A DNA stretch of 26,390 nt, from contig NW_003109985.1 in assembly GCF_000003605.2 (NCBI RefSeq), positions 284,483-310,872 of the forward strand. Reading direction: 5' to 3'. This document shows, piece after piece, positions 941-26,220 of the stretch. Within the stretch, counting starts at the first letter, position 1, and every line of letters begins with the position of its first letter. This stretch comes from Saccoglossus kowalevskii (Eukaryota; Hemichordata; Enteropneusta; Harrimaniidae). The position numbers were made by a program, and so were the translations under genes. The notes below the pieces were generated by a model. That model was not told the origin of the DNA. It searched no databases and saw only the letters and a list, made by a program, of their open reading frames with translations.

Positions 941-1094
941 CTTTCATAGCTTTGATTGCATCTTCAACGGTGTCATAATGTTCAAAACCTTTGATATTTG
1001 CTCTAAGTATGATTTCTAAAAGTTCAGGTTTTAAGCCAGCTAGTGCTACTTTAACATCACGTTGTGCAAATTCAACAAATATTTCTTTTATTGC
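941..1094 (-). CDS. SLC26A11: SLC26A11 coding exon 13, STAS domain second half (residues 590-640)
   Basis: The acceptor CATTTAG lies above 1094 and the donor GTATGT is at 940-935. It encodes AIKEIFVEFAQRDVKVALAG and then ANIKGFEHYDTVEDAIKAMK, matching human KGFQYFSTLEEAEKHL. It ends one base into a codon, so one more exon is expected. If the donor is not used, the frame stops after two more codons (Gly-Met-stop). Confidence 0.92.
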
Positions 1095-4000: not shown

Positions 4001-7000
4001 CATTCTAAAACAACAGATACTCTCGATAGATAGCTCCGCTGTGAGCAATGCAGGTTTCAAATAAAGAACTGAAGATATCATTAGAAAATGAACAAATCTG
4101 AGCGAGGTCTATCTGTGGTACCTACATGTATAACATAAAAGTTTGAAAGAGCCTTAGATAATCTACATGTTGTACATAAAAGTATGCAAATCTTTTAATC
4201 AAACATTAAAATTGTCAAATTTTGTGAGGTCCAAAAAAACTTTGAATAAACACCAGTTAGGGTGAACCATAAATTTAATGATTTGATAATATTCACAAAT
4301 AGAAAACGTGATGAGAATCACTGCGACTTTGTATTCATTGTCAAAACGTGCCATTGCAGTGAAAATTTGGATTTCTAGAAATGTACGTTTCTTTTGCAAT
4401 TTGCAAGACTTCTTCAATTCACACATGATCTTTATCACATAGCACATCCTTTTGTATCCAAATCATACAACAGATAACTTAATGTTAGGTACCCCGGTAC
4501 TTCAGACACTGGCTCATAATTATGGCACTTTAATAACTTTATTTAATTTTACAATGTTATTTAATCTTCATGTGGAGACTTTTTAACAGTTTATGTCACT
4601 GTAATTATTCAGTCATGGAAATTAAATTTTAAATTATGATTGTGAATAGTAATCATGAATATTAATTACAGACCGTTTCTCTCGTATTGGTAACTTCACT
4701 TACCAAAAGCTTTTGCAATGGCAATACTTTCCAAGAATCCAATTAAAGGTACAACAGCAAATCCAATGCCACCTTCCTGCAAGTAACAGAAGGCAGGTTA
4801 GTACAATTGTCTCCCACAATTCCAAGGTGCAATCTCAGGGATTCACCTTTGAGCATGAATCGAAGTACAGAATTTTCAGAATAAATTAAACATGGATCAA
4901 GGATTCTAACTGTCATTGTGTTAAAAGGCAGTGGTCATTGGCAGAGGTAAATATTGGTTTAAATAAATAAACAATGTAATTCAAATTTTTACTTCGCATG
5001 GTATCCATGGGAACACAACATGATCACAGTTTTTACAACTATAGAGAAGTAACAGTTAGCAGCCCTTCTCCGTCAATGTTCTCCACAGCACATCTCAAAA
5101 AATAAGTTACCAGTATAATTAAAGATACTGAAGGCAAAGATGTATTAAGAAAAATGTCACGGTAGAATAATTCCAGGCCAAACCATAGTTCACAATGTAC
5201 GAGGGACTGTAAAAGTATAACTTAATAACTTACATTAAATATGTCATTCACAGAGACATACTCTTTCTCACTTCCAGGATCTGTAGTCGGGGCAACAGTA
5301 GATGCATTCCACAACTGCTCCATGGTGCCATTTAAACTACGCTGATATTCTACAACTGTGTCATTGACAATGGTGATGTTAGGATCAGTGTTCATCTTGT
5401 AATGATCGGCTAATGGCGGCATTGGACGAAGATATGGAGGGAAGGGAGACTCAAATGGTGGAAGACCGGCTGGAACATGGCCAACAAGTGCGAAAGGCGA
5501 TTCCCCATTGTATATTGCATAAGATACACAGGCTGCTAGAATCACTATGACTGCATTTTTGGCTGTTGAAAGAATATGATACACATAAATTTGGATTTCA
5601 CAAACTATTTTACTATGATGCTATTTGACAATTGTTCTGAGCATGCAGATCTTTAGTACCGGTATGGACCAAGACTTAGAAGAACATGTTAGCAGGATTT
5701 CAGAAAGACTCGTGTGAAAATCAAAACATATTTAAGTGCATCTGTTTCATTTGTGGAGGAGAGAGAAATGGAACGAGCACCATTATATTATAAATGTCTA
5801 TTAGTATTTAAATACAATTCATGATTTCACTGTTTGTACAATGAGTTTGACTTGTCACACAATATGAAAGAAACTATCAATTAAAATTCTGATAACCATG
5901 TAATACAAATCTATCAAGCTGAAACCCAGTGAATATTTCCTTTTTTGGGCCTGTGTTTCTTGTCAGTGTGCGCACCACAAAAACGTGCACAAACATTTAT
6001 TTTCACTTATTTTGCATAGCGCCCTCTATTGACAATTTGATTTATGACAAAATTTATGTTCCATGAAATGTTTTAGAAAAAAGAATGCCTCATCAAAATT
6101 TACAACTTGAACACAAACATTTTTCACAAGGCCTTACAATATAAGTACAATATAACATGGATGCTACTTGTCAGATTTTAAGACGAGATACTCATGATGA
6201 AAGAAAATGGAAGTATTCAGTCTATATTGAATATGGACGTCCACTATGATTTTGAGTAGATGAAATTTGTTTAGATGCAAGGACAGAAATAACTTCCCTT
6301 AAATCTTAGATTTCTGATTATCAACTAACCCTTTATTGGCTTCTAATACAAAATCTGTATGTAGAAAAGAAAGTATTTTCTTGATGCTTACCTGTTCCAA
6401 AAAGCCATATGACTTTATATAAAATCTTCTGGGATGTGGTTTTCGCTTTTTTACCAGAATACCTTTCTTTAACTTTCTGAAGAAAAAAAAAATGGCGTAT
6501 GTTAGACACATACAAATCAGACAGTAGAATTACACAAAAAATTAACATATCTACCACCTGAAAAACTAATTTTTACAAAATTATAAACATTTCTAACATA
6601 AATCTTAAGGCAGGTACCTTGCTCAATATATCACCACATTTAATAACTTGAATTTTCAGCTCATCATTTTTTTTTTTAAAGTATAGTAATATATGGCTAA
6701 TGCCACACAGTGAAACTAAGTAATTCATTGGCACTTTGCACCCACAAGAATAACCTACATATATATCACAAATATGTTAATATTGTCATGTATCAGCTTG
6801 TGGATTAGTTGGGTTTAAATTCTGTTCCAGGTTAAAACAGATTTAATTTTCCACTGCACACATAAAAACAAATTTGATGTGGACTTGGAACATGAATAAT
6901 CAAATACATACCTTCATTACCATGAGAAGAATAAAACATGTGGCCCCCATTACAAAGTCTTGCCACCTAGAAAGTTGTAATAAAAAAGTTGTTAAAAATC

Positions 7001-10000
7001 ATGCAGACTGGTTCACTACCGAATAAATTAATATTTTCTTTTGGCTGAAAATAATGATTATTATACATCTGTATTGCAACGCCATAAGTTACTACCATAT
7101 TAGTTCCTACAGCATTAGGAAAAGTTAATCACGCGCATAAGCATCCTAATAATAAAAACAAACATGTGCCGCCACCATGTGTTTGGACTTCACACAAAGA
7201 AGTTCGCTGATTCTGTTCTAAACTTTTTAAATTTTGGCATTCCCATGACGTATAATAAAAGGTTATTACAAAGATATCGCAAAGTACACAGACAGTATGT
7301 CGTCGCATTGACCTCCACTGACCGTCGGTCGATCCTTCTACTGTACTGTATTTGTGTATACTTTGAATATCCGTATTCTCATAATCTAATATTATATAAA
7401 ACAAATAAAATGGATTATTATTGCCACCAATTTGTGTTGTGAATGACTTGAGTATTAGTGGTTTGCAATTTTTTATTTCATTCATAGTCTATATAATGTG
7501 TAGACAGAATCCACATACACAGCTTAGCATCTGTCTACTGCCATGACTGGTGGAATCTTTGCAGGAGATATATTATCAGATGTTTCAAATTAAATATACC
7601 TAGTTGAACAAAAATCACAATGAAATACAAATATTTGAATATCAGAGTAAATCAAAGTTCATAAAAAAATATTTTATATCTAGAAAACTGACTGGAATCA
7701 TCTCAGGGCATGAGTATTTTCTATTCTTTCCAACAATGGCCGATACAGTCTTTGGTCAAAGATGGCCTGGAAATTATAAATCATTTTTTCCCCTTAAAAC
7801 AGCAATATTCATTATCCTATATTTAATATCAATAACAAAGTTTTAACAATGTTGAAAAGTTCTTATATATGAAAGTGGTTTTTAATATCTAACAAAACAC
7901 CAACAAAAAATTAATTTGACCAGAATAAAATTCAATTTACTTTGAGATTGTCTTGTATTAAAATGAAAAACGAAAGGTACATAGTACTATCTTATACATG
8001 TACTGCATTTGTTTTATAAGAATTACATCAATAGTGCATATAAACCAAAATTGCACTTGTATACTTGAGTACTTGATCATTAAAATATTATATATTATGA
8101 CCATAAATGCAGCATCACTTCTGTAATTTACATAAGCACATACTCTAATACAATAAATACAGTACTGTATGTAATCCCCAACTTTTTTTTTCAACGTTAG
8201 GGAAATAATATATAGTACATCGTAGGATGGGAAAGCAGGCACTTAGGTGTAACAGTTTTTTTTTTCTGTTTAAATATTAAATATGATAATATCAGTTTAT
8301 GTAACAGGTGGTAAGCATTGACGTTAATTATATTATTCACAGGAAATGACGTGGTAATGACTGTATTGACTTGATTCAGTGTCAGCTTGGATGCTATCAA
8401 TAGGCGACAACAGCTGACGAATCAGTGACGTCAATCAGTCGTCAATACGTACTTTAGAATAGTCAATCATACTTTTATATATTGTGATAAGTTACAATGG
8501 AAAGGTTAAATGAGTTGTTGATGAGAACGTTTCGTGGGAAATACTGGTTTGGTGTAACTTTAATGGTACAGCCAAACTGCAAATGGAGAATCCAGAAAGC
8601 CAACTGATTGAACATAGACAAATTAGCATGTCAACTATTACAAGCATAACAAAAATACCCAGGTAGTCAAATTTAGATACATTGGTACATCCACGGAACT
8701 AAAATGATAAAAGCAGCCTTTGCATATAAATGAATTCCCGGTAGTACACAGGCTCAACTAAGCGCTGCTGGACATAAATTAAATATTTGAGAAATTTGGT
8801 TCAAAATGGAATTGTAGAAAAATAGTTATAAATGATGCACCAAAGTTATGGTCGGTTAACTCAAATCTCCCACCCCCAATTTAGTACAAGATTGAGGATT
8901 TCTAGTATCTGATTTTTGAGTTGAATGTAAAATACAGGAAATATATATATTCGCTGGATTTTATTTTCACTGAATCATTTCTTCAGCGAAAATTAATTCC
9001 AAGCGAAAATAAAGTATTTTAATACAGTATGAAATAGATCATTTGAGTTGATCAGAAATGGCCAAGACTTGACTCAAGGCCAATAAGGTTACGATATTGA
9101 TGATATGGGTTTCATTACAAGGTGGTTTTCTAGTGGGAAAAGTTTGTTTTGAATCCAGAAATAGTTTTTACGGAAAACAAATATCAAATATAATTACTCA
9201 TTTGTCATGGTCTTATCTGATTAAGTTCCTGTTTTGTTGTTTAGGAACACAGAAATGCAGTGTGAGACTATCTACACTAAGCAGATGATTTTTATTTGAT
9301 CAGTTTATCTGCTGTTAAACAAACCTGATATAGTACTTTTTTAAATGAACACCTTATCTGATGATTTTTGAGATACTTGGCAGCAAAACACCAAGCTGTA
9401 ATAGTATTCCATGCTTACCTTGTCTTGGGAATTCCCAGGGCAGTATAGTAGATATCATCAATAAAACCATGAGACTTGAACTTGGGAATACCAAATATAT
9501 GCCGCAATTGACCCACACCAATAATGACGGCAGCAGCAGATGTGAAAGCATTGATGACATTAAAAGATATAAAATTCACTAAAAACCCTGAAGAAACAAA
9601 AATAAAAAAACACATTGGAATTACAAATTACATGTCATGTAGGTATTTGAGATTAACATTACAGATTTTCGAACTGTTTTGACAAATACGAAGCTTAAAA
9701 GAATGAAAATTGAACTAGTCTAATGAACTTGCTTGTGGTATCACTAATTTACGAGATCACTAGTTCAATGGCCTGGTGAAATAGCATCGAACTAGAACTG
9801 AACCGCTAGAAACTTTTTTCTTGTTAAGAAATGCAACTCCAATACAAATCATCTGCTCCATATTGTATGCTACTGGACCATTCACTCACACTGCTGTTAT
9901 TTTCGCAAGCACTACTAATACTGCAAAAGCGTCAATTATTCACTGGGTTTTAATTTTGCCTATTTCGCTGACTGGAAAATGTGTTAAATTAAAACACAGT

Positions 10001-12547
10001 GAATATGTAAAAATTAGCATAAAATACATTATCTAAATGATAAAACAGTGAATTTAAAACCTACTGAATATGCCTGAAATGGTAAATCAGCGAAATTTAA
10101 ACCCAGTGAAAATACGTCATTTTACAGTAAAGCAAATACAGAATTCACTGATCCACACATTATACGTCACTCCACTAACTCGTACTTAGATATTAGCTGA
10201 GTAAGGAATAGTGTGTTTGAATACCACAAAGATTCTTGGCTACTTTTGATTTTAAAAACTTACCAAGATGAAATATGCCCATCAATAACTGAGTTATCCC
10301 ACAAAAGAATGCTATCGTGATAGCGTAGACGGGATTATGTAACCCGTCTTCTCGCTCCTGGCCACTGCTGAATTCAGACATAATAAGTGACATAACAGCA
10401 GTCGGTCCAAGCGTAATATCTTTTGCAGTACCCATAAAACAGTAGACAAAGTTACCCATAAATGCAGAGTAAAGTCCATACTGAAACATAATATAAACAA
10501 AAGTTACAAACTTAGTCATTATATTATATAAAATAATGTTGGTATACTCAACATTCAAGTAATACATGTCATATTTACCCTAGCAGTAGCACATTTCTAA
10601 TCTGTGCATAAGGCAAAAACACTATTTTTGCTGATTTTTTTTTTTTATTTTTTATTGCTATAGCCTAATTTTGCTGAAGCACATGTTCACTGAAACACAC
10701 ATGGACCAAAAATTGCCTTTACTGTATGCTGGATCATTAAAATATAACAAGCTTTTACCATTGACACTTATTTACGTAAATGAATGCGCTACTATCGGTA
10801 ATAAATCAAAAATACTGTGTATGCAAATATACATTGAAAATTTTTTTTAGCAGTTCCAGTAGCATTAATGTTTCACACCATCAGAAATGTACTCGTACGG
10901 ATACCGTGACACTTTATCTAAATTTATCTTCTTTCAATGTTCTTATTTACAGATGAGTCTAAAACAAATCTTTCTAAATTGGGCATTACTAGTATTTACA
11001 AAATACATGTACAAATAAACAGAAATGTGCAATGTTGCATTAATATGGTGGATAACATACAACCACACTTGACAAATACTAGCACTTATACTGCCCTAAT
11101 ATATATTCTATTTATATTTAATTGGGGCTAGTACGATTGACAGTTTTAAAAAAACTTAAAGAGGGTCAACTGACATGCATTGCTGAACATTCTAATTCAT
11201 TTTTAAAGGCCTGGGCAGAAATAAGAAGTGTTAACCAACTGTTGATGTAAACACAAAAGCTAAGACTGCTTTAAGTATATAACTTTAGGACTAGCTTATT
11301 TATCATTGCCAATATGTAAAAGTTATCTGGAGACTGGAGTTTATTCATACACTACTTTCTCTGCCATGTAATTTGGGTTTTAGGGAAATTTTGGTAGGTG
11401 ATCCAGGTTTATTACATACCGGTACATGCAGTCAGAAAGAGGGTGTTAAATTAGAACTCTGACAACCGAGACTAGAATAATGACCAAGATGCAAGTAAAC
11501 AACTCTGGCATTGCAAGTGATTAATGACGTACTGTAAATAAAAAAGCATAATTTTGCAACTAGGCAAGGCATTCAAAGTTATAAATCGATAATTTGAATA
11601 CACAGACTTGTGAGCCAATCTTCAGTTTTCGAACAATCAATTTATCAACAAGTTTAGTTGCAAAGATTCACACAAAATCAGTGAATACAGATATGGTTGC
11701 AGCAAACTTTGAACAAAGATGAAAGATGCACGTGTTATGCAGTGCCCATAAACAGAAGCGTTTATGATTTGTTTTTTCTTCCACGGTTCAAAGGTCAAGA
11801 AGTGTAAAAGGGGGGAGGGCAAACTGTAGTATGGTTACAGGGAAGCTGCTATTAAAATACCAGTATATTAACAGTTACTGTGCCCACACACAGCACTATT
11901 ATCAGAATGTATACAAATTTTAGAAAGTTTTGCTCAGGCTTAACAAATAGTCCATGTTTCCGAAAACTGGTTTATACTTCTGAGGCACAGGTAAGACTAC
12001 TCAATATTTGATATGGACTGAAGCGACTTAAATCAACATGGTAACCTGCAGAATACAAATATCATGTACCATAAAACAGTTTATGTTTTACACAAGACGA
12101 AAAACTAGGAATTTTTTGTCGCAATTGTCACTGACTATCCCGAAATACCGATCTAAGTATCGATTGAGTTGGGTTATGGATTAAAAACTATATTTTGTTA
12201 TTGGTCTTGTATGTAGACTATGAGGGGAGTTATAAAATCAACACCACCACTACATTGTACCGCCGCTGTGGTGTGCACTGTTTTTATTCAAATATTTAAG
12301 TTAATTTTCAACTTACCTGAAGTGGAAGTTTAGCGACCGTTGCATACGCCAATCCTTGCGGTAACACTGTCAATCCAACTGTGATTCCAGCAATAAAATC
12401 TGATATAAGCCATTTTGGTTTATATTTGGGTAGCCATTGTGTGATGGGAAATTTGGATTTGACATTGTCAACTGTACAGCTCTCTTTGGCAAAGTCTCCA
12501 CATTTCTTTCCTACAAATCTAGCATTGGTTCTTAATCGAGTCGTCAT
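941..12547 (-). CDS. SLC26A11: SLC26A11-like sulfate/anion transporter, 13 coding exons, 3' end missing
   Basis: This is an SLC26/SulP family anion transporter, closest to SLC26A11 (sodium-independent sulfate transporter; plasma membrane and internal membranes in vertebrates). Thirteen exons (12317-12547, 10264-10480, 9419-9587, 6912-6966, 6392-6476, 5234-5562, 4704-4776, 3891-3941, 3388-3448, 2410-2606, 1781-1911, 1275-1442, 941-1094) all have GT/AG borders and join in frame to 640 codons plus one base. Landmarks are SDFIAGITVGLTVLPQ (about 58-73), YGLYSAF (78-84), TSAAAVIIG, GFLESIAIAKAF, NQELLALG, YPVTGSF, YIPSAALAAVII, and a STAS domain (about 534-640) with HIDYTS. Human SLC26A11 has 606 residues; the excess is mainly a ~50-residue insertion in one loop (289-362). 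The last exon splits after one base of a codon, and no terminal exon is visible before the hAT element, so the final residues probably lie left of the window. No frameshift or in-frame stop was seen in the exons. Confidence 0.93.
1275..1442 (-). CDS. SLC26A11: SLC26A11 coding exon 12, STAS domain first half (residues 534-589)
   Basis: The acceptor TTGCAG lies above 1442 and the donor GTAAGT is at 1274-1269. It encodes the STAS beta-strand opening (TVIEIEAGVYFPAVEHV) and the strand-helix motif AVVDASRVTHIDYTSIL, equivalent to human CLVLECTHVCSIDYTVVL. STAS domains regulate SLC26 assembly and trafficking. Confidence 0.94.
1781..1911 (-). CDS. SLC26A11: SLC26A11 coding exon 11 (residues 490-533)
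   Basis: The acceptor CCAACAG lies above 1911 and the donor GTAATA is at 1780-1775. It encodes KIDLISWLGTFIGSL and QGVEIGIIIGIGIDLCFLLY, the final helices (human RLDLLPLCVTFLLCFWEVQYG), ending in the charged linker to STAS. Confidence 0.93.
2410..2606 (-). CDS. SLC26A11: SLC26A11 coding exon 10 (residues 424-489)
   Basis: The acceptor CATACAG lies above 2606 and the donor GTAAGT is at 2409-2404. It encodes TAVNSQSGVITPLGG, then FTGALVLISL and FFYIPSAALAAVIICAV, the last conserved transmembrane helices before the STAS linker. The end phase is 1. Confidence 0.95.
3388..3448 (-). CDS. SLC26A11: SLC26A11 coding exon 9, 61-bp exon (residues 404-423)
   Basis: The acceptor GTTTTCAG lies above 3448 and the donor GTGAGA is at 3387-3382. 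It encodes TANVMSSFVGAYPVTGSFS, matching human TNMLGSLVSSYPVTGSFG. It ends with two bases of Arg. Confidence 0.93.
3891..3941 (-). CDS. SLC26A11: SLC26A11 coding exon 8, 51-bp exon (residues 387-403)
   Basis: The acceptor ATTACAG lies above 3941 and the donor GTATGC is at 3890-3885. It encodes RRNKYRVWPNQELLAL, aligned with human NNYRIDANQELLAIG. The phase is 1 in and 1 out. Confidence 0.92.
4032..4130 (+). repeat. Short copy of the AGCTCCGCTGT tandem-core element
   Basis: This segment aligns with the left end of the element at 13048-13708: the same AGCTCCGCTGT start, then GCAATGCA, TTTCAA, AAGAACTGAAGAT, ATCATTAGAAAATGAACAAATCT and AGGTCTA. It carries no tandem core and no right terminus. 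It lies in SLC26A11 intron 7 (3942-4703), whose remainder shows nothing else. Confidence 0.75.
4704..4776 (-). CDS. SLC26A11: SLC26A11 coding exon 7 (residues 363-386)
   Basis: The acceptor TTGCAG lies above 4776 and the donor GTAAGT is at 4703-4698. The exon encodes EGGIGFAVVPLIGFLESIAI and AKAF, one of the most conserved SLC26 blocks (human GAGLAVVPLMGLLESIAVAKAF). The end phase is 1. Confidence 0.95.
5234..5562 (-). CDS. SLC26A11: SLC26A11 coding exon 6 with enlarged glycosylated loop (residues 253-362)
   Basis: The acceptor TTTCAACAG lies above 5562 and the donor GTAAGT is at 5233-5228. It begins AKNAVIVILAACVSYAI, matching human ARNALVVSFAALVAYSF. After GLPPFESPF it carries a long hydrophilic loop (289-362) with four N-x-S/T sequons (NIT, NDT, NGT, NAS). 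The human loop is about 50 residues shorter with one sequon, so this loop is a lineage-specific expansion facing the exoplasmic or lumenal side. Confidence 0.93.
6392..6476 (-). CDS. SLC26A11: SLC26A11 coding exon 5 (residues 225-252)
   Basis: The acceptor is a T-run followed by CTTCAG above 6476; the donor GTAAGC is at 6391-6386. The exon encodes a lysine-rich cytosolic loop (KVKERYSGKKAKTTSQK) and then ILYKVIWLFGT, leading into the next transmembrane helix. The end phase is 1. Confidence 0.9.
6912..6966 (-). CDS. SLC26A11: SLC26A11 coding exon 4, 55-bp mini-exon (residues 206-224)
   Basis: This short exon is not visible as an ORF. The acceptor TTTCTAG lies above 6966 and the donor GTATGT is at 6911-6906. 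It encodes WQDFVMGATCFILLMVMK, aligning with the human segment RVGDAVLGLVCMLLLLVLK. Phases match on both sides (needs one base in, phase 0 out). Confidence 0.9.
7130..7395 (+). repeat. Dispersed repeat, copy A
   Basis: About 260 bases align with the reverse complement of 18460-18700. The longest shared block is CACACAAAGAAGTTCGCTGA and its continuation TTCTGTTCTAAACTTTTT. Later blocks include GGCATTCCCATGAC and TGTACTGT. It lies in SLC26A11 intron 3. I see no coding potential or terminal repeat; the family is unknown to me. Confidence 0.8.
7396..8904. other. SLC26A11: SLC26A11 intron 3, middle part
   Basis: AT-rich sequence without coding exons. A small cluster of CRE-like sites lies at about 8347-8442, including a perfect TGACGTCA at 8426-8433. 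Confidence 0.45.
8905..9029 (+). mobile_element. Truncated copy of 213-bp foldback MITE
   Basis: It carries the right two thirds of the element seen complete at 21840 and 22924: GAGTTGAATGTAAAAT, TTCGCTGGATTTTATTTTCAC, CAGCGAAAATTAATTCCAAG, and the terminus AAAGTATTTT..ACAGTA. The left terminus is missing. It lies in SLC26A11 intron 3. Confidence 0.8.
9419..9587 (-). CDS. SLC26A11: SLC26A11 coding exon 3 (residues 150-205)
   Basis: The acceptor is TTCTTCAG above 9587 and the donor GTAAGC is at 9418-9413. The exon encodes FISFNVINAFTSAAAVIIG and GQLRHIFGIP, matching the conserved block in human SLC26A11 that reads ...IKGFTSAAAVTIGFGQ. It ends with two bases of an Arg codon. Confidence 0.94.
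9936..10130. mobile_element. Degenerate foldback MITE related to the GCGAAAATAAA family
   Basis: The left arm (TTCACTGGGTTTTAATTTTG, then TTTCGCTGA) is repeated in inverse as TCAGCGAAATTTAAACCCAGTGAA near 10087-10110. It ends in TTTTACAGTA like the 213-bp MITE copies. It lies in SLC26A11 intron 2 (9588-10263). A separate 11-bp perfect inverted repeat (ATTGAACTAGT) lies at 9709-9719 and 9759-9769. Confidence 0.55.
10264..10480 (-). CDS. SLC26A11: SLC26A11 coding exon 2 (residues 78-149)
   Basis: The acceptor is TTTCAG just above 10480 and the donor is GTAAGT at 10263-10258. The exon encodes YGLYSAFMGNFVYCFMG and DITLGPTAVMSL, close to the SulP signature region, where the anion site forms between TM1 and TM3. 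The end phase is 1. Confidence 0.95.
10481..12316. other. SLC26A11: SLC26A11 intron 1, no recognised features
   Basis: This is 1.8 kb of AT-rich intron. I found no exon-like, RNA-like or repeat structure shared with other parts of the window. Confidence 0.5.
12317..12547 (-). CDS. SLC26A11: SLC26A11 coding exon 1 (residues 1-77)
   Basis: The ATG at 12547-12545 is the first in-frame ATG; the frame upstream offers only TTG. It encodes a cysteine-containing hydrophilic N-terminus, then WLPKYKPKWLISDFIAG and VGLTVLPQGLAYATVA, the first transmembrane segment of SLC26 proteins. The donor GTAAGT lies at 12316-12311 after a phase-0 CAG. A CTCAG acceptor-like site borders 12568. A TATATAAA on the minus strand near 12615-12622 offers an alternative local promoter. 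Confidence 0.93.
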
Positions 12548-13047
12548 TGTACAGTTTGGACGAAAACACTGAGCACACAATTCAGCTCTCGTTCAGAAGA
12601 GATCAAACCGTTGTTTATATAAAAACTTCAATAGATGATAAAGAATACAAAGAAAGGTTGAGACCAGCAATTCTGTTATCTGTTAAAAGAGATAAAAACA
12701 TTACGATCTGAATGAAAAAAAAGCTAATCACTACGATGTACATTACATGGTTTGCAGGCACGTGCTAAAATTTGCGATAACCTAAAGTTTACACAGAGAC
12801 TAACCCTATTACGTTCACATAGCAATGCAACCGGGTTGAAACTGTTCGACAACGCCTCGCTTTATATCATATTAAACAAAACAAACATTGATATCAAAAT
12901 CAAACAAAAATTAGGACAGAAAAATTGTCACGCTATAAATATGTATAAATGAATGACCTTCAATTCAGATAATAAATATTTTAAATATATTGCCTCCATG
13001 TGAATAATTCTACATTGGGCGATAGAAAACAAATTTTACATAAAACA

Positions 13048-13708
13048 AGCTCCGCTGTTAGCAATGCACGTTTCAATTAAGAACTGAAGATACATGCATC
13101 ATTAGAAAATGAACAAATCTAAGAGGTCTACCGTGAGGTCCCTATGTGTAATCAGATCAGACTTGCTGTTTTCAACAAGAAGTCGAAAATATCACTTTTT
13201 ACCAAAAATGAAAAACATATTCACCAAAATTAGAGAATTAAAGATACGTATCATGAAATGAACAAATCTAAAAGGTCTACCATGAGGTCCCTATATGTAA
13301 TCAGATCAGACTTGCCGTTTTCAACAAGAAGTCGAAAATATCACTTTTTAGTAAAAATGAAAAAATATTCACCAAAATTAGAGAATTAAAGATACGTATC
13401 ATGAAATGAACAAATCTAAGAGGTCTACCGTGAGGTCCCTATATGTAATCAGATCAGACTTGCTGTTTTCAACAAAAAGTCGAAAATATCACTTTTTACC
13501 AAAAATGAAAAAAATATTCACCAAAATTAGAGAATTAAAGATACGTATCATGAAATGAACAAATCTAAGAGAGGTCTACCCAAGGTACATACACACCAAA
13601 GCATTCAGGCTTGTAGTTTTCAGGTCGAAAAAGTAAAAAGTTGACACTAACGACCACAGATAATCACTCATATGATAAGCTCCGCTCGTCTAAGTCAACA
13701 ACGGAGCT
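13048..13708 (+). mobile_element. 661-bp non-autonomous element with tandem core and inverted ends
   Basis: The ends are AGCTCCGCTGTT (13048-13059) and its near-perfect inverse AACAACGGAGCT (13697-13708). Between them a core unit of 148-149 bases recurs: GAACAAATCT starts at 13111, 13260, 13408 and 13557. There are three near-identical full units and a diverged partial fourth. A further AGCTCCGCT at 13678 pairs with the right end to form a terminal hairpin with a 7-bp stem. A fragment of the left end recurs at 4032. No coding capacity is seen. The layout recalls the tandem-core pearl elements of bivalves, but that is structural resemblance only. Confidence 0.8.
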
Positions 13709-14539
13709 AAAAATATGTTATCAAGATGTTATGCTATCACTGCATTTGTTCTATTATTGGTGCATGCACATGTATGAAGAATACAGTCATGTCTATGGTT
13801 AAATTAAGCAATATTATAATTATTCAACATACAAATAATGCAATTGTTCACTCACACGCACTTGATTGGAGATGCACTTTTAATAGAGCAAATATGATAT
13901 TTGCTTTATGAAAATTGCATCTTCCATGGAAGTCAGGAAATATACTTATAAACTGTTGCTCATGTTGAAGAGAAATTTTGAAAATGAATATCAATTAAGA
14001 CAACCATGATGCAGTTTGTTTTGAAAATCTTAAAACGAGGACAAATATGGAAATACATGTAAATGCAACAGATGACAGATGCAAAGTGATATATCAGTTT
14101 GTCCTTTTCATTTCACACAACTACTAGTAAATGTGAAATCAAAACTTGACCAGTCAGATAAAAATGTGAACTTCTGGCAACAAATATAACTAAAATATAT
14201 GTATGTAATTAAATGCTGTCTTTACATGCCACCACAAAGTTTGACGAAATCATGAATTTGATCATTAAAATATTCATGCATGATACTGTAATCCAACACC
14301 AAAACGTGTGAGCTTTGTGATGAACTGCAAGTACTTTTATAAGTACAAACAGTACATGTATCAGTAAGTATCATAGCGTGCATCAACAACTGACATACAT
14401 GGAGGTATATTACATGTACAAGGAACATCTCCCTCAAACCTAACATATCCTGGAACTTCATGGGCGAGACAGCAACAAATTCACTATTAGTGATTTTGTC
14501 ATCCATATGCTTACCCAGAATCTGTAGCGACACACTCAC

Positions 14540-14688
14540 CCAGGCAGGGTGTGGGTTTTGTACTTGTGTTGTACTCAGCTTCAGTAACAATGCTAGCATA
14601 ATCAGCAAAACCACACTAACAGCAAGAGTGTAAATAGCACTTGTGAGATGTACGTCCTCTAAGATTAATTTATATATTGCCAAGTAGC
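14540..14688 (-). other. Orphan exon-like segment encoding an SLC26-like transmembrane stretch
   Basis: The minus strand reads CTAG acceptor, 149 bases, then a strong GTGAGT donor. The open frame holds 49 codons. They include AIYKLILEDVHLTSAIYTLA and SVVLLIMLALLLKL, an organisation similar to the SLC26 segment just after the TSAAA block (human ...LRIAETRVGDAVLGLVCMLLLLVLKL). It lies between SLC26A11 exon 1 and the shared promoter, with no companion exons. A chance hydrophobic frame, a relic of a duplicated SLC26 exon or an alternative exon are all possible. Confidence 0.2.
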
Positions 14689-15455
14689 CTAGTTATGGTA
14701 CAAGAACTTATCAAAAGTACATCTTTACGAGTGTCGTAAAAATCTCTGCATGATAAAGCGACAACTATCAGAGCTTCTTATACCAACATAATAAATTACA
14801 CGCCAGAGCGTCTTCTTCTACAAGGTACAGGCATACTTGTCCTCATTAAAATTCAGTGGTACAGGTCAAGGAGTCTCAACCAGCAGAAAAAAAATCAAGA
14901 CCATAATAAAAGTACATGTATGACTAATGGGTACAGTGACACATGTACCAAGTTACAGGAACAAATAAAAGTAAATAAAAGTGTGTTAAATTTTGAGGTG
15001 AACTCTACCCGATTTCAAGGTAATCTAAAATAATTGCATTTTAACTGAGCTGTTTTGGGGGTATTCTCTGAGCAGTTATACAGATCCAGTAGTGTGCGTC
15101 ACAACAGAGTAACAACCCTGAATTACACACACATACCTGCCACATAGGAAGAGGACAGATAAAGAAATAATAGGTCACATGACAATGACATAACCAGTCA
15201 CAGCCACATTAGCAAGTATAAAGGCATGATTCTTTAGCAGAATACATGTGGTATACAATTACCTCACTTCACAGGACTGTAGTACTAAAAGTTGCTTTTT
15301 TTTTATTTATATCTTGTTCTGGTCCCACTTATACAGGAAGTAAACACTAGGTCAACTATTCAGGAAGTTTTTAAATAACACTTATTCGTTCTTAAACTCG
15401 TGTAACCATTGCCAATCCCTCAGGGGAATGTGCAAGTGTTATAAAATTAAAAATG

Positions 15456-15629
15456 TACTGTAAACTGCAATTTTTTACATTTTTGGTGAAAATTGTGAAA
15501 TTTTGTAGCAGTGAAAATTTCTATGAATCCTTTGACATAGGGTGTCACTAACTTTGCTGAAATTTGTCTTCACAAATGCCATTAAATCATGGAATAACTA
15601 AATTACTAGCAGTGAAAAAGTTTACAGTA
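15456..15629. mobile_element. 174-bp MITE with TACTGTAAAC ends
   Basis: It begins TACTGTAAAC (15456-15465) and ends GTTTACAGTA (15620-15629), a perfect 10-bp inverted terminus including flanking TA, consistent with TA target duplication as in Tc1/mariner-type MITEs. The interior has GTGAAAATTT-type motifs related to the GCGAAAATAAA family. Confidence 0.6.
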
Positions 15630-16583
15630 CTAACTTTCTAACTTGAAGTATGCAAATTATAACTAAACTCTTTACCACGAAACTGTCAAAGAGCAATAAA
15701 AGAATAAATAATGCAACTAATTCCCAAACTTGTGCATGTGCTTATAAGCAACATAGCATGAACAAATACAATACAAAGTTTAAAATCCTATTAACCTACC
15801 ACCAGAAACAAGAAGCCATTGTCATGCTAATAAGTTGGCGCTTGACAATAGAAACCATTAGATACATTTATTTAGTTACGTGTGAAGGACAGGGATTCCA
15901 CTAGATAGAATACAATGTAATTTCATACTACGTTCTGAATGTCATACGTGGGCACAGCTGATACACATTATAAATATTGTATTAAAATTGACAGACACAA
16001 TTTAACGTTCCAGTACAATCGAAATTAAGTTTCGAATTGTATTCACTGTGAAAGAAATCTTTCAAGAATCATATCGCACAATGCTCATAACTACGTATAA
16101 ATCACGTGTACAAGTCAGATCACGAGGTGTCTTTTCTTAAAGTCGCATGGATATGTCAATCATATGACAGTAGCGGGCGTTCAGCTGTGGATGAAGTCTG
16201 CTTTACATAATATTTATCGTTGGAAGAATTTCACCGAAACGTGTTTAGTTAATCATGTGAAGATTTCAAATTACTTATTTAACACTACGATAATTTAAGT
16301 TTCAAGACATTACACGTTCAGTTCCGATGATCGCCTCAATAGCCGCGGTAAACAGAGCACTCGCTAATCACATTCGCCAAGTTTCAATAATGTAGAAGAT
16401 GATTATACTGCTACAGATGCAACAGGAAAAGCATGTATGTTTTTTACTTCAGAATTGAACGCCGTAGTTTCTGTGTGAACGTAAACAATAGAACGCCATG
16501 GAGGTGTCAATTGATCTCAAGTAATGAACACGGAGGTGAATGCCGGGGTGAATGAAAGTGATGGAATATTCCGAACAACTTAC

Positions 16584-16760
16584 CGGCGAAGCGGTGTTCA
16601 CGGCGCCGGTGACTTCTTTCGCCGCAAAATTCCCTGCCCAGTATTATTTCGACAAAACAGTCACCGATATTCACTCCGGAGTGGAACGCATTAACACTAC
16701 CAACCCACTCCCTTAGCATACACGTTCAAACACAAACGCCACGCAGTCGTGCCAGTCCAT
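16584..16760 (-). other. SLC26A11: Putative non-coding first exon of SLC26A11
   Basis: The minus strand has a perfect splice donor GTAAGT at 16583-16578, following a CpG-dense stretch unlike the AT-rich surroundings. A donor here would pair with the CTCAG acceptor at 12568, 21 bases above the SLC26A11 ATG, giving a 5' UTR intron of 4.0 kb. This puts the transcription start a few hundred bases from SGSH, as expected for a divergent pair. A short frame (16507-16719) runs through the donor and is unlike any protein I know. The 5' limit is a guess. Confidence 0.4.
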
Positions 16761-16919
16761 CTGGTGCGTGTATTTTCACCTATTATATGCTAATTTAATA
16801 CAATACGTCACAGCTAAAGCTTTGGGTTAGAGTTTGTACTTCCGTTACCGCATTTAGGTTGCATTGTGGGATATAAAAACAAGTTTCCTGGCCACCTGAC
16901 CTGTTTCCTCACTATAAAA
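16585..16919. promoter_or_regulatory. Putative bidirectional SGSH / SLC26A11 promoter
   Basis: The block at 16540-16760 is CpG-rich (more than a dozen CpG in about 150 bases). Toward SGSH there is an ETS/GABP site ACTTCCG (16838-16844), a ZNF143-like GCATTGTGGGA (16861-16871) and TATAAA-like strings just before the ATG (near 16871 and 16914). A second ETS core CCGGAAG lies at 17098-17104 in SGSH intron 1. ETS sites and CpG richness are typical of divergent animal promoters. Which start sites are used is not known. Confidence 0.45.
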
Positions 16920-17040
16920 ATGTCGTTCAAGATACTTATGTCTGTCTGCTGGAAAAGGGGGCGTACCATGTTCCTGTTTTTGCTGTTTTTATCAATAATG
17001 TTGTGTTTTCCATCACACGGGAATGTCTTGCTGATTGTTG
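16920..17040 (+). CDS. SGSH: SGSH exon 1 (residues 1-40, leader)
   Basis: The ATG at 16920 is the first in-frame ATG; the frame continues upstream but offers only a GTG. Met7 and Met17 are alternative starts; starting at Met17 gives a classical signal peptide. The exon ends with NVLLIV, the first beta-strand of the sulfatase fold, and donor GTATGT at 17041, phase 1. Confidence 0.88.
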
Positions 17041-20000
17041 GTATGTTCACATTGATTCAATAATATGGCGTTAAGAATTCGGCGGAAAAATTCAAACCCG
17101 GAAGGGTTTAGTTTAGAGGGTCTATGGGCAGCTGGTGGGAGGGTCTATGGGCAGCTGGTGCAGTAAGTTTCATGTTTTCTTCTCTCAAGTTAAAGCACTG
17201 ATAAATGAATTTAACAAGTTTGATCAATGTGTTTCATTTTTGCTTTCTAGAATTTTTATTAAACAAATTTGATCAATGTTTGCGTTGCCATTTTTTTTTG
17301 GAAAAATTCATTTCTGATGTTATTGTAGCATGGGCAGTGAAGAAGGAAATGTTCTTCATCTTCAATTTGTTGAGTGTTGCAAACTGGGCATTTCCTTTCT
17401 GCTACCTTTATATCTTGATGCCTTCCAGTCTCAATCTTAAGAGTGTGTGCACTAATTCTGAGTTTTGTCATGGCTGATCTATGGTATGGATTTTTTACAA
17501 CTGCCAGATATTTTTCAAAGAAGGTGTCTTTTTTGAGTTGCCTATATGTGCAGAGCATGCAATAAATCAAAACTACTTTGCTGAAATTTTAACTTTAGTC
17601 TTTCAACCAAAGTTTTAGTAATGTTATCTTCCTTCGTTGTTTTGATTTCCTTCCACATGTTTTCCATATTCAGAAGTTTTAGTATGTGTTTTATCCCAGA
17701 CACCCAATTTTTCATTCCCACATTGTCTAGTAGTACACTAAGTCTGTATGCTTTAAGTACGAGAGAGTTGTGTGGTTTTTTAGTGATGTTAATACATTAT
17801 TTTATCATGTGTGTAATACTCGAAAGAAAGAGTGGAAGTCTTCCCAGCTCTAGTAGGCATGCTTTGCTATTCACTTTTAATAAGTATTTACAAAATTTAA
17901 TATGGACTTTTTCCATGGGCAAAGTGAAGTTTATTATGCTGGACTAACCCTACCCCTGAGCTGAAATGGAGAGAACCTGAAGAAAAGATTAAAAAAAAAA
18001 TGGGACACTGTCTACATTATTGACACTTTCAATTTGGCGTATGTTACCCTTTGTAATTTCACAAATCTGCTAGTATATTGCTTGATGAGATTATTGGCTT
18101 GAAGACAGAGACCACTAAATATAGTTTTATGATAATTACTGATAATGGACCAGGTATATTTTATAAAATTTCAGGAGATGATGCTGGATTTGAAACACAG
18201 GTGTACAACAATACTGTTTGTCGTACTCCAAATATCAACTATTTGGCCAAGAAGAGTGTGATTTTCAAACATGCCTACACAACAGTGAGTAGCTGCTCAC
18301 CAAGTAGATCATCAATCCTGTCAGGACTTCCACAACATCAGAATGGAATGTATGGTCTTCATCAGGGTTACCACCACTTCATGTCTTTTGATGCTGTACA
18401 GAGTCTGCCAAGAATATTAAAACATGCACAGATAAGAACAGGTAGGAGTAGTGATAATTTAAGGTTATTACGAGAATACCTCAAAGTATGCACAAAGACA
18501 GTACAGCTGGAGTATCGTCCAACACCCAGCAGAGGTCGATGCGCGGAATACTGTCATAACCTTATTATTATACATCTTTTCTTTCCAAGCATATGTCATG
18601 GGAATGCCGAAATCCAAAAAGTTTAGAACAGAATCAGCGAACTTCTTTGTGTGGAGTCCGGTCAAACCCAGATGGCAGCTTATGCGCATAATTATTTCAT
18701 ATTTTGAATTTGTAGGATGAAAATACCCTGTAAAATATCGCAAAATTACGGCACGCTGTAACTTATGGTGTTACAATGACAGATGTATAATAATAATCTT
18801 TATATTGAACTTGTATCCTCATTGAGATGACATGACAATAAAGAACAAAATTCTAGTATGTATAGAGAAAAAAAAATGGAAAATCATAACTCTATTATTA
18901 GATTAGATTTTTTAATTGTGAGGCAGCTGGTTGTCTGAATTTTATATTGTTCTCCCTTTGTTAGAGTATTGATTTCTAGTTTTCATTTTGTAGGTTTCTA
19001 GTGAGTTTAAAGCGTTTTGCAGCCCGGATTCAGAAATAGACAGCAAAAGCAGATCATCTTCATATAACTGTTAGAGAAAGGGGGTCATTATTGGACTGCT
19101 CTATTTCATTTTTAATATCGTTTACATGAATGTTGAACAGAAGAGGTTCATCGCCCTGTCTGTATGAGAATCATGCATATTTGGTTACACGTGCATATCA
19201 TAATTTTTTTGTATTTTGACAAAAATGGCTGATTGACAGTCATTTGTTTTTATTCATTTCTATGCTGATTCTTTGCTATTATATGATTAACTTGAAAGTT
19301 TGTACACAACTGCTTCTCTGTGATGGCTTGCATGATTTCGTTCAAACTCAGTACAATAACAATATTAATAACAAATTTGTTATCGCATCCTTGAAATAAA
19401 TTTTTCATCAGTTAAAAGCAATAACAATGAAATACATAAAAAAAAAAATGTAAAATGCTCAAAAGAAAAGGAGAAAAAAATGATAAAAGTAAGAATTTTT
19501 TTTTTAATTGGATGTTCTGTTCTAATGTCAAATGTGGCATATACATATTCACCCACTTGTCTTATAATTTCAACATCATTGCAACTCATCAGGTATATAA
19601 ATTTGTGATTAATGTTGTGGGCTGTACAATGATTCTACATACCAGATTTTGGTTGTACATTACATTTTTCAGTGATTTAATCAAATATGCTCCGTTTCTT
19701 TACAGTACAATTATCAGCAAAGACTGATCGCATCACAGCACTATTTTGCCAAAAGTATACCCACATTCCTGGATTGCTGTTAGTGATGGAATTTAGCATT
19801 AAACACAGAACCTGGACTGTGCATTGGCAATGCTTGTTCTATATTTCTTTTACCAATGCATGCAATATGCAATTGATAATCATTTGAAAGTCAAATGTTA
19901 AAATTAATTTTGTTAGCAATACGATTGAGCAGAAAGAAATTGACTGTAGGTGCATAGTGCAATCAAATGGCATGAGAAAACATGCCTATAGGTAAATTTG

Positions 20001-23000
20001 CAAATAAATTGACCATCGTGAGTTTGTTGTTTTAACGATTCTTACAAATGTGAGCAAACATTAGATATTGCTGATTTATTCAATATATATTTTAGTGACT
20101 AACTGACAAACACAAGACGCTGATTACAACTAATATATGTACATATGTTTGATCTTTACTGGTCTGCTATCAGATTAATCAGGTAATCGCCTGGGCCCTT
20201 GGTTCATGACCTTCATACCCTACATTTGCACTCATCTTTTTTGAGATGTGACATAGGTTTTTTACAATCTTCTGATGAGATAATGATTGGTTTCTAATAT
20301 AAAATATCTGATTTAAAATATTTATCTAATATCAATGTTAACATTGACTTCTATGATTATGGCAAGGTGAAAAAGATGTCAAGTAAACTGACCTTTGACC
20401 TTTCTTCCACCATTGTCAAAATATTGCAAACAAACAAGTTCTGTTTACTACATATTTGCTGTTTTCCAATCACAAAACACAGAAGCAATGTTGAAAACTA
20501 TATTTAAAATTGTTGAAAACCAATCAGTTTCTTTTCTTAAAGCGCAGTATTCATGCCATGTATGCGCGAGATATATAGGTCTCATATAAACAAAGATGCT
20601 GACTTCGGCTATTGCGCAGATCAACGAGTACAAACTGAGATGTTACAAAGTTTTAATTAGTTGCACCCAGGTCAAACCTCATACTTGTGATTTCCATTAG
20701 AAGAGCGCATTGGATTGTGGGAAAATCAATGTTTATCAACACAAATGTCGCACATGCGTTGGGCGGCGACCACCGTCCTTTAAACGTTTCTCAAATTCTA
20801 AAAACCTTTAAAAAAATATTTTTAACTAATGCACTTGATTACCTTGACCTACCAAGATAACGATAGTCTGGGCGTAATGTCACTTCTAAGCTAGCTATCA
20901 GCCTGCTTTGCCTTTTCATTGAAACTTATTAATATTAAAGTCTGTAACATTATTATCAATAATTTCAACTTATTCTTTCTAGTGTTTACTAATATGAAAC
21001 ATATTTATACAAACTGCAAAATATAAATATATGGGAGGTTTGAAAACACGCAAATCTAGCTCTAAGTCAGCTAAATGTTAGGTTATGCTCAGACCATACT
21101 GTATGTAAGAGTAAAAATATTCTGTTTTGTGTGTCAGGAATAATTGGAAAGAAACATGTTGGACCAGAATCTGTCTATCCATTTGACTTTGCTGAGACAG
21201 AAGAGAATAATTCTATAATGCAAGTTGGGAGAAATATCACCAGAATTAAAGAACTTGTACAAGAGTTTTTTAACACCCAGGATACGAGGTACAATTCATA
21301 CATTATGCCAAATAGTTCATGATGGGTTTTCCCTTGGCATATATCCTTCATGGTAGCACATTTTTTAGTAACCGTGATGGTAGGATCTGTCAAAAAGAAT
21401 GTGCTTATATCCTTGCAAAACACCTGACATAAGTTCTTGGCTGTGCATGTATGTCTAAAGGTCAATATATCTTTCTCTTTCTGATTTGACTATGCATTGT
21501 TATATGATTGTCAGTCATTTGTTTGTTGTCCATTGTTTACTGTTCACCGATTATTAAAACGAGTGGGTCGTCACCTGCGCATGCGCGGGAATTGAGTCCC
21601 AAGCAGCGATAACAACACACACTGAAAACGCAAAGGCTCATGGGTAGACACTTGTTTGTAAACAATGACACGCTATGGCCATCTGACACATGCGCAGGTG
21701 ACGACTCCCCTGCTTTAATTTTGATTATTACGGATTCTTATAATATTAGTTTCTGTCAAATATCTGTGCATTAGCATTACCTATTGTTGTCCATGATAGT
21801 TGCATGCAAATAGCTGGAAATTTATTTTACAACTTCCTATACTGTGAGATACTTCATTTTAGCTGGAATTAATTTTCTCTGAAATCACTTTTTAAGTGCT
21901 TTGTATGGAATTTATTTTCACTGATTTTTGGCGAGTTGAATGTAAAATATAGGAAAAAAAGGTATATTCGCTGGATTTTATTTTCACTAAATTATTACTT
22001 CAGCGAAAATAGCGAAAATTAATTCCAAGCGAAAATAAAGTATTTTACAGTAGGTGATTTTATATAAGCATAGCATGTATATTCATTTGGTCATTCTGGC
22101 TTACCTAGTTACATTTATCAAAAATATGAAATACCGTAGTGGCAAAAACACAGGCCCTCTACTTTTGCTACTGACATCAGCAGGTTGCTTTTCTTTTTCT
22201 CCGACTGATTAATTGGAAGGAATAATCTCAGCATGTACTCAATGCTTTGAATATTGTGCAGTGACTACACATTGTTTATTGACTTGTATCATAATTTTTA
22301 TTTCAGACCATTTTTTCTTTATGTAGCTTTCCATGACCCACATCGATGTGGGCACACACATCCAGAATATGGAAATTTCTGTGAGAAATTCGGGAATGGT
22401 GATCCAGGAATGGGGATAATAGCTGACTGGAAGCCGATCCATTATACCGCACTGGATGTGCAGTTGCCACCATTTGTGCAGGATACACCAGCAGCCAGAG
22501 CTGATATTGCAGCTCAGTATACAACTATTAGTAGACTGGATCAAGGTATATACCAAACACATTGTTTCATCCTCAATTATCCTGAAAAAATTTTGAGTTA
22601 TTTCTCATCATATTATTATTAGATGCATTTCATTATTGATATGTTTTCATTGGTTGATTTGTACCACATGCAGCCCTGTTATAAGGTGACAACTGGACAG
22701 TGCTTGTGGTCAAATTATGAACTAGATTGTATGCGACTCCGTCATGTCTAATATTATCCCAATTTTGCTTGAATCGTTAAAAGTTTGAAAAGTTCTTTGG
22801 ATACCATATTTGCGTATCCAATTGTTGTTTATTGTCATTTTATAAGTTCCCCATACCATATATTCACACTTTGTTCACCTGTATTTCATTTATACACGTG
22901 CACTCCTAATAAAGCAAATACATTACTGTGGAATACTTTATTTTCACTGGAATTTATTTTCGCTGAAAAGGCTTTTTGGGCGTTTTGTATGGAATTTATT

Positions 23001-26079: not shown

Positions 26080-26220
26080 ATAAAGTACGTTATTTTCGCT
26101 GACATAAAATACAGTAAAATACCTTTTTTTCTTTGTTTTACATTTAACTCGTCAAGAATCGGTGAAAATAAACTTCATACAAAACAACCAGCTAAAATAA
26201 AGTACTTAAAATTGTACGGT
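26080..26220 (-). mobile_element. Degenerate copy of the 213-bp MITE family, inverted
   Basis: Read on the minus strand it gives TACTTTATTTTAGCTGG, GTTTATTTTCACCGATTC, GACGAGTTAAATGTAAAAC and CAGCGAAAATAACGTACTTT, the same block order as the copies at 21840 and 22924 with an internal deletion. Confidence 0.65.

Follow-up and report, generated by a model that had tools for sequence, protein, structure and literature searches.

The hemichordate Saccoglossus kowalevskii carries SGSH, the gene of a sulfate-releasing lysosomal enzyme, and SLC26A11, that of a sulfate transporter, as close neighbours, which raises the question of whether they merely inherited their order or are held together by shared control. 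We addressed it in a stretch of 26,390 nucleotides (the window; positions 284,483 to 310,872 of contig C453). A sequence-only reading had proposed a conserved head-to-head pair, and our gene models confirm that the two lie on opposite strands with their 5′ ends facing. The SLC26A11 start codon is at 12547 on the minus strand and that of SGSH at 16920 on the plus strand, so that 4,372 bases (~4.4 kb) separate these divergent neighbours. The first coding exon of SLC26A11 (12317–12547, minus strand) and exon 1 of SGSH have their 3′ edges at 12317 and 17040, respectively, and both edges are GT donors in the gene models.

The proposed gene identities are borne out by comparison with known structures. 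The SGSH orthologue (16920–24017, plus strand) has five exons (16920–17040, 18175–18441, 21138–21288, 22307–22545 and 23239–24017, the last with the stop) that encode 518 amino acids, complete to the stop. It is full length, has the Pfam domains Sulfatase (4.2e-45) and SGSH_C (3.5e-17) and aligns over 497 residues with human SGSH (PDB 4mhx) at 714 bits, against 92 for the next match. The CxPSR motif is present, and in the alignment to human SGSH its Cys81 (CSPSR; codon at 18294–18296, plus strand) is equivalent to human Cys70, which we take to be the formylglycine site. Residues D42, D43, C81, R85, K134, H136, H192, D284, N285 and R293 match, at an offset of 11, human D31, D32, C70, R74, K123, H125, H181, D273, N274 and R282, presumably the key residues of the enzyme.

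The SLC26A11 orthologue (copy A; 941–12547, minus strand) comprises 13 coding exons and 640 codons, with GT–AG introns and a frame that is open throughout. Exons 1–7 lie at 12317–12547, 10264–10480, 9419–9587, 6912–6966, 6392–6476, 5234–5562 and 4704–4776, and exons 8–13 at 3891–3941, 3388–3448, 2410–2606, 1781–1911, 1275–1442 and 941–1094; the last exon or exons fall beyond the window, at whose left edge a 1,740-base run of N (C453:282743–284482) ends. The protein matches the Pfam families Sulfate_transp (PF00916, 2e-100) and STAS (PF01740, 3e-11), and ranking PDB chains by bit score places human SLC26A11 (9iar) at the top with 474 bits, the next match at 281 and other animal SLC26 chains at 260 or below. 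Glu378 (GAA codon at 4729–4731, minus strand), aligned as LLESIA/FLESIA with FLESIA in copy A, is the equivalent of human Glu-320, and a glutamate is also kept at this position in copies B and C. In the human family Glu-320 is unique to SLC26A11, where it has been proposed as the key residue that couples protons (PMC13408680). The human protein, which is upregulated during lysosomal biogenesis, was itself proposed in 2026 to be the lysosomal sulfate exporter, a proton:sulfate/chloride exchanger, and the premise that one gene releases sulfate and the other transports it is now the stronger for it (PMC13408680). Because the transporter is a proposed lysosomal sulfate exporter and its key glutamate is kept here, the idea that the two genes are coupled is biochemically sensible.

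The expected agreement with human 17q25.3 holds as well. The accessible parts of two papers place the human SLC26A11 5′ end at 78194200 (PMC3140517) and SGSH exons 2–8 within GRCh37 78183648–78190994 (PMC10334611), and excerpts of two others link the genes in gar and medaka (PMC6684226) and show both on a single BAC from a sole (PMC7915175). Assuming 20,000–30,000 genes, a given gene would by chance have a second given gene as its divergent neighbour in roughly 1 of 50,000 cases, from which we infer that the adjacency was inherited. SGSH and SLC26A11 thus form an inherited divergent pair whose order matches that of vertebrates. ENDOV, which we take to be a neighbour at human 17q25.3 and which was the single such neighbour tried, matched only contig C363 and not C453, and a larger conserved 17q25.3 block was rejected on this ground. 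The genome also holds two further SLC26A11-like genes (copies B and C) and two further SGSH-like genes. Copy B lies in tandem on C453, which was read outside positions 1–244500, and matches the first coding exon of copy A at 97% identity over 247 bases; no SGSH adjoins it, so the pairing is not obligatory. The SGSH-like genes form a tandem pair on contig C218 without a visible transporter partner, and upstream of both copy C (C3222) and the first C218 gene lie long runs of N, which would hide any partner on that side.

The region between the start codons, seemingly long for a shared promoter, contains no recognised gene: of the 11 open frames that reach 60 codons and lie wholly inside it, 8 were compared with Pfam, and none scored above a family cut-off. 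The longest, at 14222–14692 on the minus strand, was rejected as an intervening gene, as nothing in Pfam matched it above the cut-off and its one PDB match (E 0.71) was of chance level. Across the genome, the 321 bases at 14400–14720 find no match other than themselves; codon usage is no guide to coding here, one real exon having scored 0.00 bits per codon. A probable dispersed-repeat insertion occupies 13040–13700 (its left end set by a genome search and its right end by visual judgement) and includes a tandem array of ~3.2 copies of a 149-bp unit (13107–13580). About 45 bases of it, at 13048–13093, recur in at least 39 further places in the genome (scored among 515 first-look candidates). 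Dispersed repeats recur both inside and beside the window, which fits the description of this genome as transposon-rich. Its mitochondrial COX1 agrees with an invertebrate source: ATA stands at conserved Ile positions and the single AAA at a Lys position, the frame contains TGA, and AGA and AGG are absent.

CpG content offers a marker of transcribed DNA on this contig. In windows of 500 bp, the median CpG observed/expected ratio is 0.36 in gene bodies of C453 (55 windows) and 0.90 between genes at 271.5–278.5 kb (14 windows, range 0.71–1.33). Control copies outside C453, computed after the C453 profile, uphold the marker on the whole: gene-body medians are 0.42 for copy C (26 windows) and 0.56 and 0.31 for the two C218 genes (5 and 10 windows), and the median between the latter is 0.94 (17 windows). 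There are exceptions: within the body of copy C, 7 of the 26 windows lie above 0.6 and reach up to 0.97, and 2 of the 17 between the C218 genes fall below 0.25. Within the gap, where segment borders were set after the profile was seen, 13701–15750 holds 19 CpG against 59.4 expected, its four windows (0.20–0.51) lying at gene-body level, and 15851–16919 holds 51 against 41.6 expected. The depleted stretch is most likely transcribed as a 5′-UTR intron of SLC26A11, and this depletion is the best evidence suggesting that such an intron spans most of the gap; in copy B, depletion likewise extends ~1.5 kb upstream of the start codon. The CpG-rich segment, near 15.85–16.92 kb, is probably a bidirectional promoter.

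Splice signals lend moderate support to the putative 5′-UTR intron. Upstream of the SLC26A11 start codon, two candidate acceptors, with exon starts at 12707 or 12679 on the minus strand, suggest a non-coding 5′ exon; scored by a model that learned from all 16 acceptors in SLC26A11 and SGSH, they rank 10 and 18 among 1,295 minus-strand AG sites. Chance sites score alike, since 12 of the top 25 minus-strand acceptors are neither known nor in the gap. The predicted non-coding first exon of SLC26A11 (16584–16760, minus strand, its 5′ end guessed) ends in CCG|GTAAGT at 16584|16583, a donor within the CpG-rich segment and 336 bp from the SGSH start codon. GTAAGT occurs seven times on the minus strand of the window, six times as the donor of a coding exon and the seventh time at 16584|16583. 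This donor ranks 13 among 1,650 GT sites, and a stronger one, at 15137, ranks 3. Among the top 25 minus-strand sites, 3 of the 15 acceptors and 5 of the 14 donors that do not belong to coding exons fall in the gap, with ~2.5 and 2.3 expected by length.

Core promoter motifs are compatible with more than one arrangement. A TATAAA at 16872–16877 (plus strand), 48 bp before the SGSH start codon, may mark the SGSH core promoter, and TATATAAA at 12616–12623, ~70 bp before the SLC26A11 start codon, a possible gene-proximal promoter of the transporter; TATAWA is common in the window, with 55 occurrences on the plus and 46 on the minus strand. The available text of PMC6537441 reports higher SGSH under a nutrient deprivation in which TFEB also goes up. 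TFEB/CLEAR control of the pair was rejected, as the motif is not enriched: CACGTG occurs 5 times in the window (expected 2.6), a number attained in 11 of 100 shuffles, and 2 of the 5 lie in the gap. No exact GTCACGTGAC (CLEAR) was found, and one site with a single mismatch, GTCACATGAC, lies at 15174–15183.

We favour, with modest confidence, an inherited pair in which no more than a few hundred bases part the starts of the two genes, both within 15.85–16.92 kb, with a shared promoter, which we infer from the CpG and splice patterns, and a metabolic coupling suggested by the literature. The plus-strand start of SGSH would lie at ~16.9 kb. SLC26A11, on the minus strand, would begin within the CpG-rich segment; its short non-coding exon would end at 16584, and a first intron of ~3.9 kb would run to the start-codon exon at 12707 or 12679. 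With a single open promoter region activating the two genes at once, enzyme and exporter would be made in the same cells. In the lysosome, SGSH would strip heparan sulfate of its N-linked sulfate, and SLC26A11 would export this sulfate together with protons while taking up chloride, so that sulfate, an inhibitor of sulfatases, would be kept from building up. Of the shared control first suspected at this locus, a shared promoter region is what these signals lean towards; an obligatory coupling is not, given the unpartnered transporter copy and the SGSH-like tandem pair on C218. We advance only tentatively the wider proposal of a sulfate-release-and-export unit, the animal counterpart of a two-gene metabolic operon, that may have shared a single bidirectional promoter from the deuterostome ancestor or earlier onwards, and whose order selection may have held against transposons and local scrambling to keep sulfate production in the lysosome in step with export.

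A somewhat unlikely, though serious, alternative is that the order is inherited without function, simply unbroken since the deuterostome ancestor, and that each gene has its own promoter, SLC26A11 at ~12.6 kb and SGSH at ~16.9 kb. The repeat insertion and the 4.4 kb between start codons are in keeping with this, and SLC26A11 may have a promoter of its own, 4.3 kb from SGSH, given TATATAAA and the CpG-normal DNA just before the start codon (14 CpG against 12.6 expected at 12548–13040). Many animal gene blocks date back to the bilaterian ancestor (256 new ones, compared with 45–56 in shuffled genomes, in the excerpt of PMC8851819), so survival of the pair alone is not rare. Against separate promoters, the CpG depletion of 13.7–15.75 kb and the acceptor candidate point to transcription across the gap. 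Survival by neglect is also less likely in a hemichordate, as local order is heavily shuffled in this phylum, two members of which have no apparent microsynteny in the available portion of PMC11175523.

It is improbable, in our estimate, that the pair persists as a bystander, with a control element of one gene embedded in the long first intron or flank of the other and no metabolic reason for the adjacency. The predicted 5′ intron of SLC26A11 is indeed long, and such regulatory constraint is a known cause of conserved neighbours, according to the accessible part of PMC8851819; the bystander model does not, however, predict that the two products act in one pathway. Far less probable still is chance adjacency or the acquisition of a bacterial two-gene unit. 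SGSH relatives do occur in bacteria, at 37–44% identity among the 80 of 312 loci taken, but none of these 80 loci yielded a transporter relative in its flanks (6 kb at most and often less; tblastn with E up to 1e-3), with SGSH itself recovered in 80 of 80, and a bacterial origin of the pair was rejected on this result. The spliced genes, the vertebrate order and the best matches to human proteins favour vertical descent.

The occurrence of the pairing in both an invertebrate and vertebrates provides independent evolutionary support for SLC26A11 as a lysosomal sulfate exporter. The pairing also predicts that some regulatory variants near SGSH would alter both sulfate release and export, with a bearing on how MPS IIIA alleles are read. 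In the titles and opening parts of abstracts searched, from a collection covering a minority of subscription journals, we found the pair neither described as co-regulated nor said to be conserved beyond vertebrates.

As at human 17q25.3, SGSH and SLC26A11 stand side by side here. The human 5′ ends presumably abut. The locus differs from the human one in the 4.4 kb, including a repeat insertion, that lie between its start codons, and SLC26A11 is followed by its tandem copy here and by RNF213 in human. The next-best match of the transporter, plant SULTR4;1 (7lhv; 281 bits against 474 for human SLC26A11), which we take to be a vacuolar sulfate exporter, likewise has a glutamate at the human Glu-320 position (ILESVGIAKAL alignment). 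SGSH has five exons here, compared with the human exons 2–8 named in the available part of PMC10334611. With bidirectional gene pairs as a class, the locus has in common an inherited head-to-head order and a presumed shared promoter; the class needs less than 1 kb between genes, and here the short 5′-end distance is predicted from CpG and splice signals. Close divergent pairs are not enriched in non-vertebrate animals, in the accessible text of one gene-order survey (PMC2871058), which counts against the reading we favour. The part of PMC8895820 available to us, which treats bidirectional pairs, does not name SGSH/SLC26A11 and describes GALNS/TRAPPC2L, where a lysosomal sulfatase gene likewise lies head to head with its neighbour and shares its promoter, but where the partner, TRAPPC2L, is not a sulfate transporter.

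The sequence-only reading had SLC26A11 and SGSH as divergent neighbors, and this arrangement is borne out by exon models, domain content and matches to PDB chains. Two genes are recognized in the window. SLC26A11, here called copy A, runs on the minus strand from its start codon at 12547 down to 941, with 13 coding exons, GT-AG borders and an open frame of 640 codons; SGSH occupies 16920–24017 on the plus strand, where 5 exons encode a complete 518-residue protein. The transporter contains Sulfate_transp and STAS domains, and the enzyme contains Sulfatase and SGSH_C domains. Among PDB chains, the top match of the transporter is human SLC26A11 (9iar, 474 bits), followed by plant SULTR4;1 (281 bits), with the remaining animal SLC26 members at 260 bits or less. 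For the enzyme, human SGSH (4mhx) scores 714 bits and the runner-up 92, and ten residues that we assign to the SGSH active site are all kept in the alignment (offset 11). The interval that had been singled out, 12317–17040, spans exactly the first coding exon of one gene to the first coding exon of the other, and we conclude that SLC26A11 and SGSH are a real, inherited, divergent pair.

A search of the 572-Mb assembly (4,830 contigs), where the window forms the right-hand end of contig C453, returned two further SLC26A11-like genes and two further SGSH-like genes. Copy B of the transporter lies in tandem with copy A on the same strand (C453:260617–270033), and copy C is found at C3222:372012–385013. 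The SGSH-like genes are both on contig C218, in tandem (C218:7309–9755 and C218:18259–23444); they share 54–71% identity with the window's SGSH in matched pieces, retain the CSPSR motif, and may represent an expansion of sulfatases specific to this lineage. No last exon turned up for the second of them, which is followed by an N run of 4,565 bases. Upstream of copy B, C453:270,034–284,500 was read apart from two N runs (67 and 1,740 bases) and no SGSH exon was found in it; the neighbor of the second C218 gene, 8.5 kb off, is the preceding SGSH-like gene. One head-to-head pair is therefore seen in this assembly. Copy B and the second C218 gene are not paired in this way, and long N runs hide the neighbors of copy C and of the first C218 gene. 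A mitochondrial contig of 17,037 bases has ATA at Ile positions and, within its COX1 stretch, a single AAA, which falls on a Lys position; this codon use is in keeping with a hemichordate. Two exons of copies A and B are 97% (window 12310–12556 and C453:269796–270042) and 94% (window 1253–1449 and C453:261820–262016) identical in DNA, against 68–82% for the five other exons that could be aligned. Homology around the 97%-identical first exon ends within about ten bases of the start codon and of the donor. These observations suggest gene conversion, confined to exons, between the two tandem copies.

Several other features lie in the window. Short dispersed repeats, MITE-like by eye, occur at 9919–10131, 8909–9030, 21838–22052, 22923–23139 and 26104–26197 and recur in neighboring loci. 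A minus-strand open frame at 2–472 matches the zf-C17orf113 zinc finger (2.1e-7), is possibly transposase-derived, and exits the left end of the window, where an N run starts. Another minus-strand frame (17259–17588), inside SGSH intron 1, has a motif like that in the cysteine region at the C terminus of a non-LTR retrotransposon; its only Pfam match, to an unrelated family, is sub-threshold. A tRNA-Trp (CCA) gene is located on the plus strand at the contig end (26292–26363).

The start codons of the pair are 4,372 bases apart, and this distance alone disfavors a shared promoter. CpG content, measured as observed/expected in 500-bp windows, is the best of three signals leaning towards one. On C453, the median is 0.36 in gene bodies (three genes, 55 windows, range 0–1.05), 0.90 between the tandem transporters (271.5–278.5 kb, 14 windows, range 0.71–1.33), and 0.76 in unclassed outside windows (36, nearly all left of copy B, range 0–1.97); the 10 windows at 278.5–285.4 kb, which we read as the copy A 3' end, have a median of 0.42. 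Outside C453, control gene bodies have medians of 0.42 for copy C (26 windows) and of 0.56 and 0.31 for the C218 genes (5 and 10 windows), and the DNA between the C218 genes (17 windows) has a median of 0.94. The marker has exceptions: 7 of the 26 windows in copy C exceed 0.6, and 2 of the 17 between-gene windows fall below 0.25. In invertebrates with gene-body methylation, CpG depletion marks transcribed DNA. Since 13.7–15.75 kb is at gene-body level (19 CpG where 59 are expected, windows 0.20–0.51), we read it as probably transcribed; the Poisson probability of so low a count at the intergenic rate is about 5e-8, a value that ignores clustering and uses borders picked after the profile was seen. 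Upstream of the copy B start codon, depletion likewise extends 1.5 kb (three windows, 0.08–0.27), and an AG acceptor is seen by eye 60 bases before the ATG. The proposed shared promoter at 15.85–16.92 kb, whose right edge is the SGSH start codon, is CpG-rich (51 seen, 41.6 expected). A 156-codon minus-strand frame at 14222–14692 has no Pfam or PDB match above chance, and part of it (14400–14720) is single copy within CpG-depleted DNA.

Weight models built from the two genes' own splice sites (17 donors, 16 acceptors) give a moderate signal for a putative SLC26A11 5' exon. Close to the SLC26A11 start codon, the best-scoring minus-strand acceptors lie at 12707 (160 bases before the ATG; score 10.9, rank 10 of 1,295 AG sites) and 12679 (132 bases before it; score 8.4, rank 18); true acceptors left out of training score 1.8–14.7. 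A candidate GTAAGT donor at 16584/16583 scores 8.5 (true donors 3.1–11.3) and is the only one of seven minus-strand GTAAGT sites in the window that is not a coding-exon donor. Donors at 15137 (rank 3 of 1,650) and 15800 (rank 12) outscore it, so it is one of several candidates for the first-exon donor. Among the top 25 minus-strand sites, 3 of the 15 acceptors outside coding-exon sites fall between the start codons (about 2.5 expected by length), as do 5 of the 14 such donors (about 2.3). It is also possible that SLC26A11 has a separate promoter within 12548–13040: CpG is normal there (14 seen, 12.6 expected; p about 3e-4 at the gene-body rate), and the segment contains TATATAAA, both of which speak against a single promoter. 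The rest of this CpG-normal stretch, about 13040–13700, carries a 149-bp tandem array and looks like a dispersed-repeat insertion. Weighing these sequence features together, we judge one promoter region common to both genes to be somewhat more probable than not.

The proposal that lysosomal sulfate production and export are matched is on firmer biochemistry than the sequence-only reading had to go on, as SLC26A11 is now argued to be a lysosomal sulfate exporter and its key glutamate is kept here. In a 2026 study (PMC13408680), the human protein is reported as a proton:sulfate/chloride exchanger argued to be the long-sought exporter, prevention of sulfatase inhibition depends critically on sulfate efflux, and Glu-320 is a key residue unique in the human family; SGSH occurs 0 times in that text. 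The equivalent in copy A is Glu378 (codon 4731–4729, minus strand), and copies B and C also have Glu. The plant SULTR4;1 chain has the same residue at the aligned position, so this Glu extends beyond animals. Selection for coupling of the two genes is plausible, though less probable than not.

Linkage of the two genes is described for human, with the SLC26A11 5' end at 78194200 (PMC3140517) and SGSH exons 2–8 at 78183648–78190994 (PMC10334611), for gar and medaka, where both genes lie within one conserved segment (PMC6684226), and for sole, where they are adjacent in the table of one BAC (PMC7915175). Survival of the pair stands out in a hemichordate, as apparent microsynteny is described as absent between two hemichordate genomes (PMC11175523). 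Survival alone is no proof of selection, since hundreds of blocks are reportedly retained from the bilaterian ancestor (PMC8851819) and, in one survey, close divergent pairs are not enriched in non-vertebrate animals (PMC2871058). The SLC26A11/SGSH pair described here is a new example of an already known type of arrangement, and the role newly proposed for SLC26A11 makes it timely.
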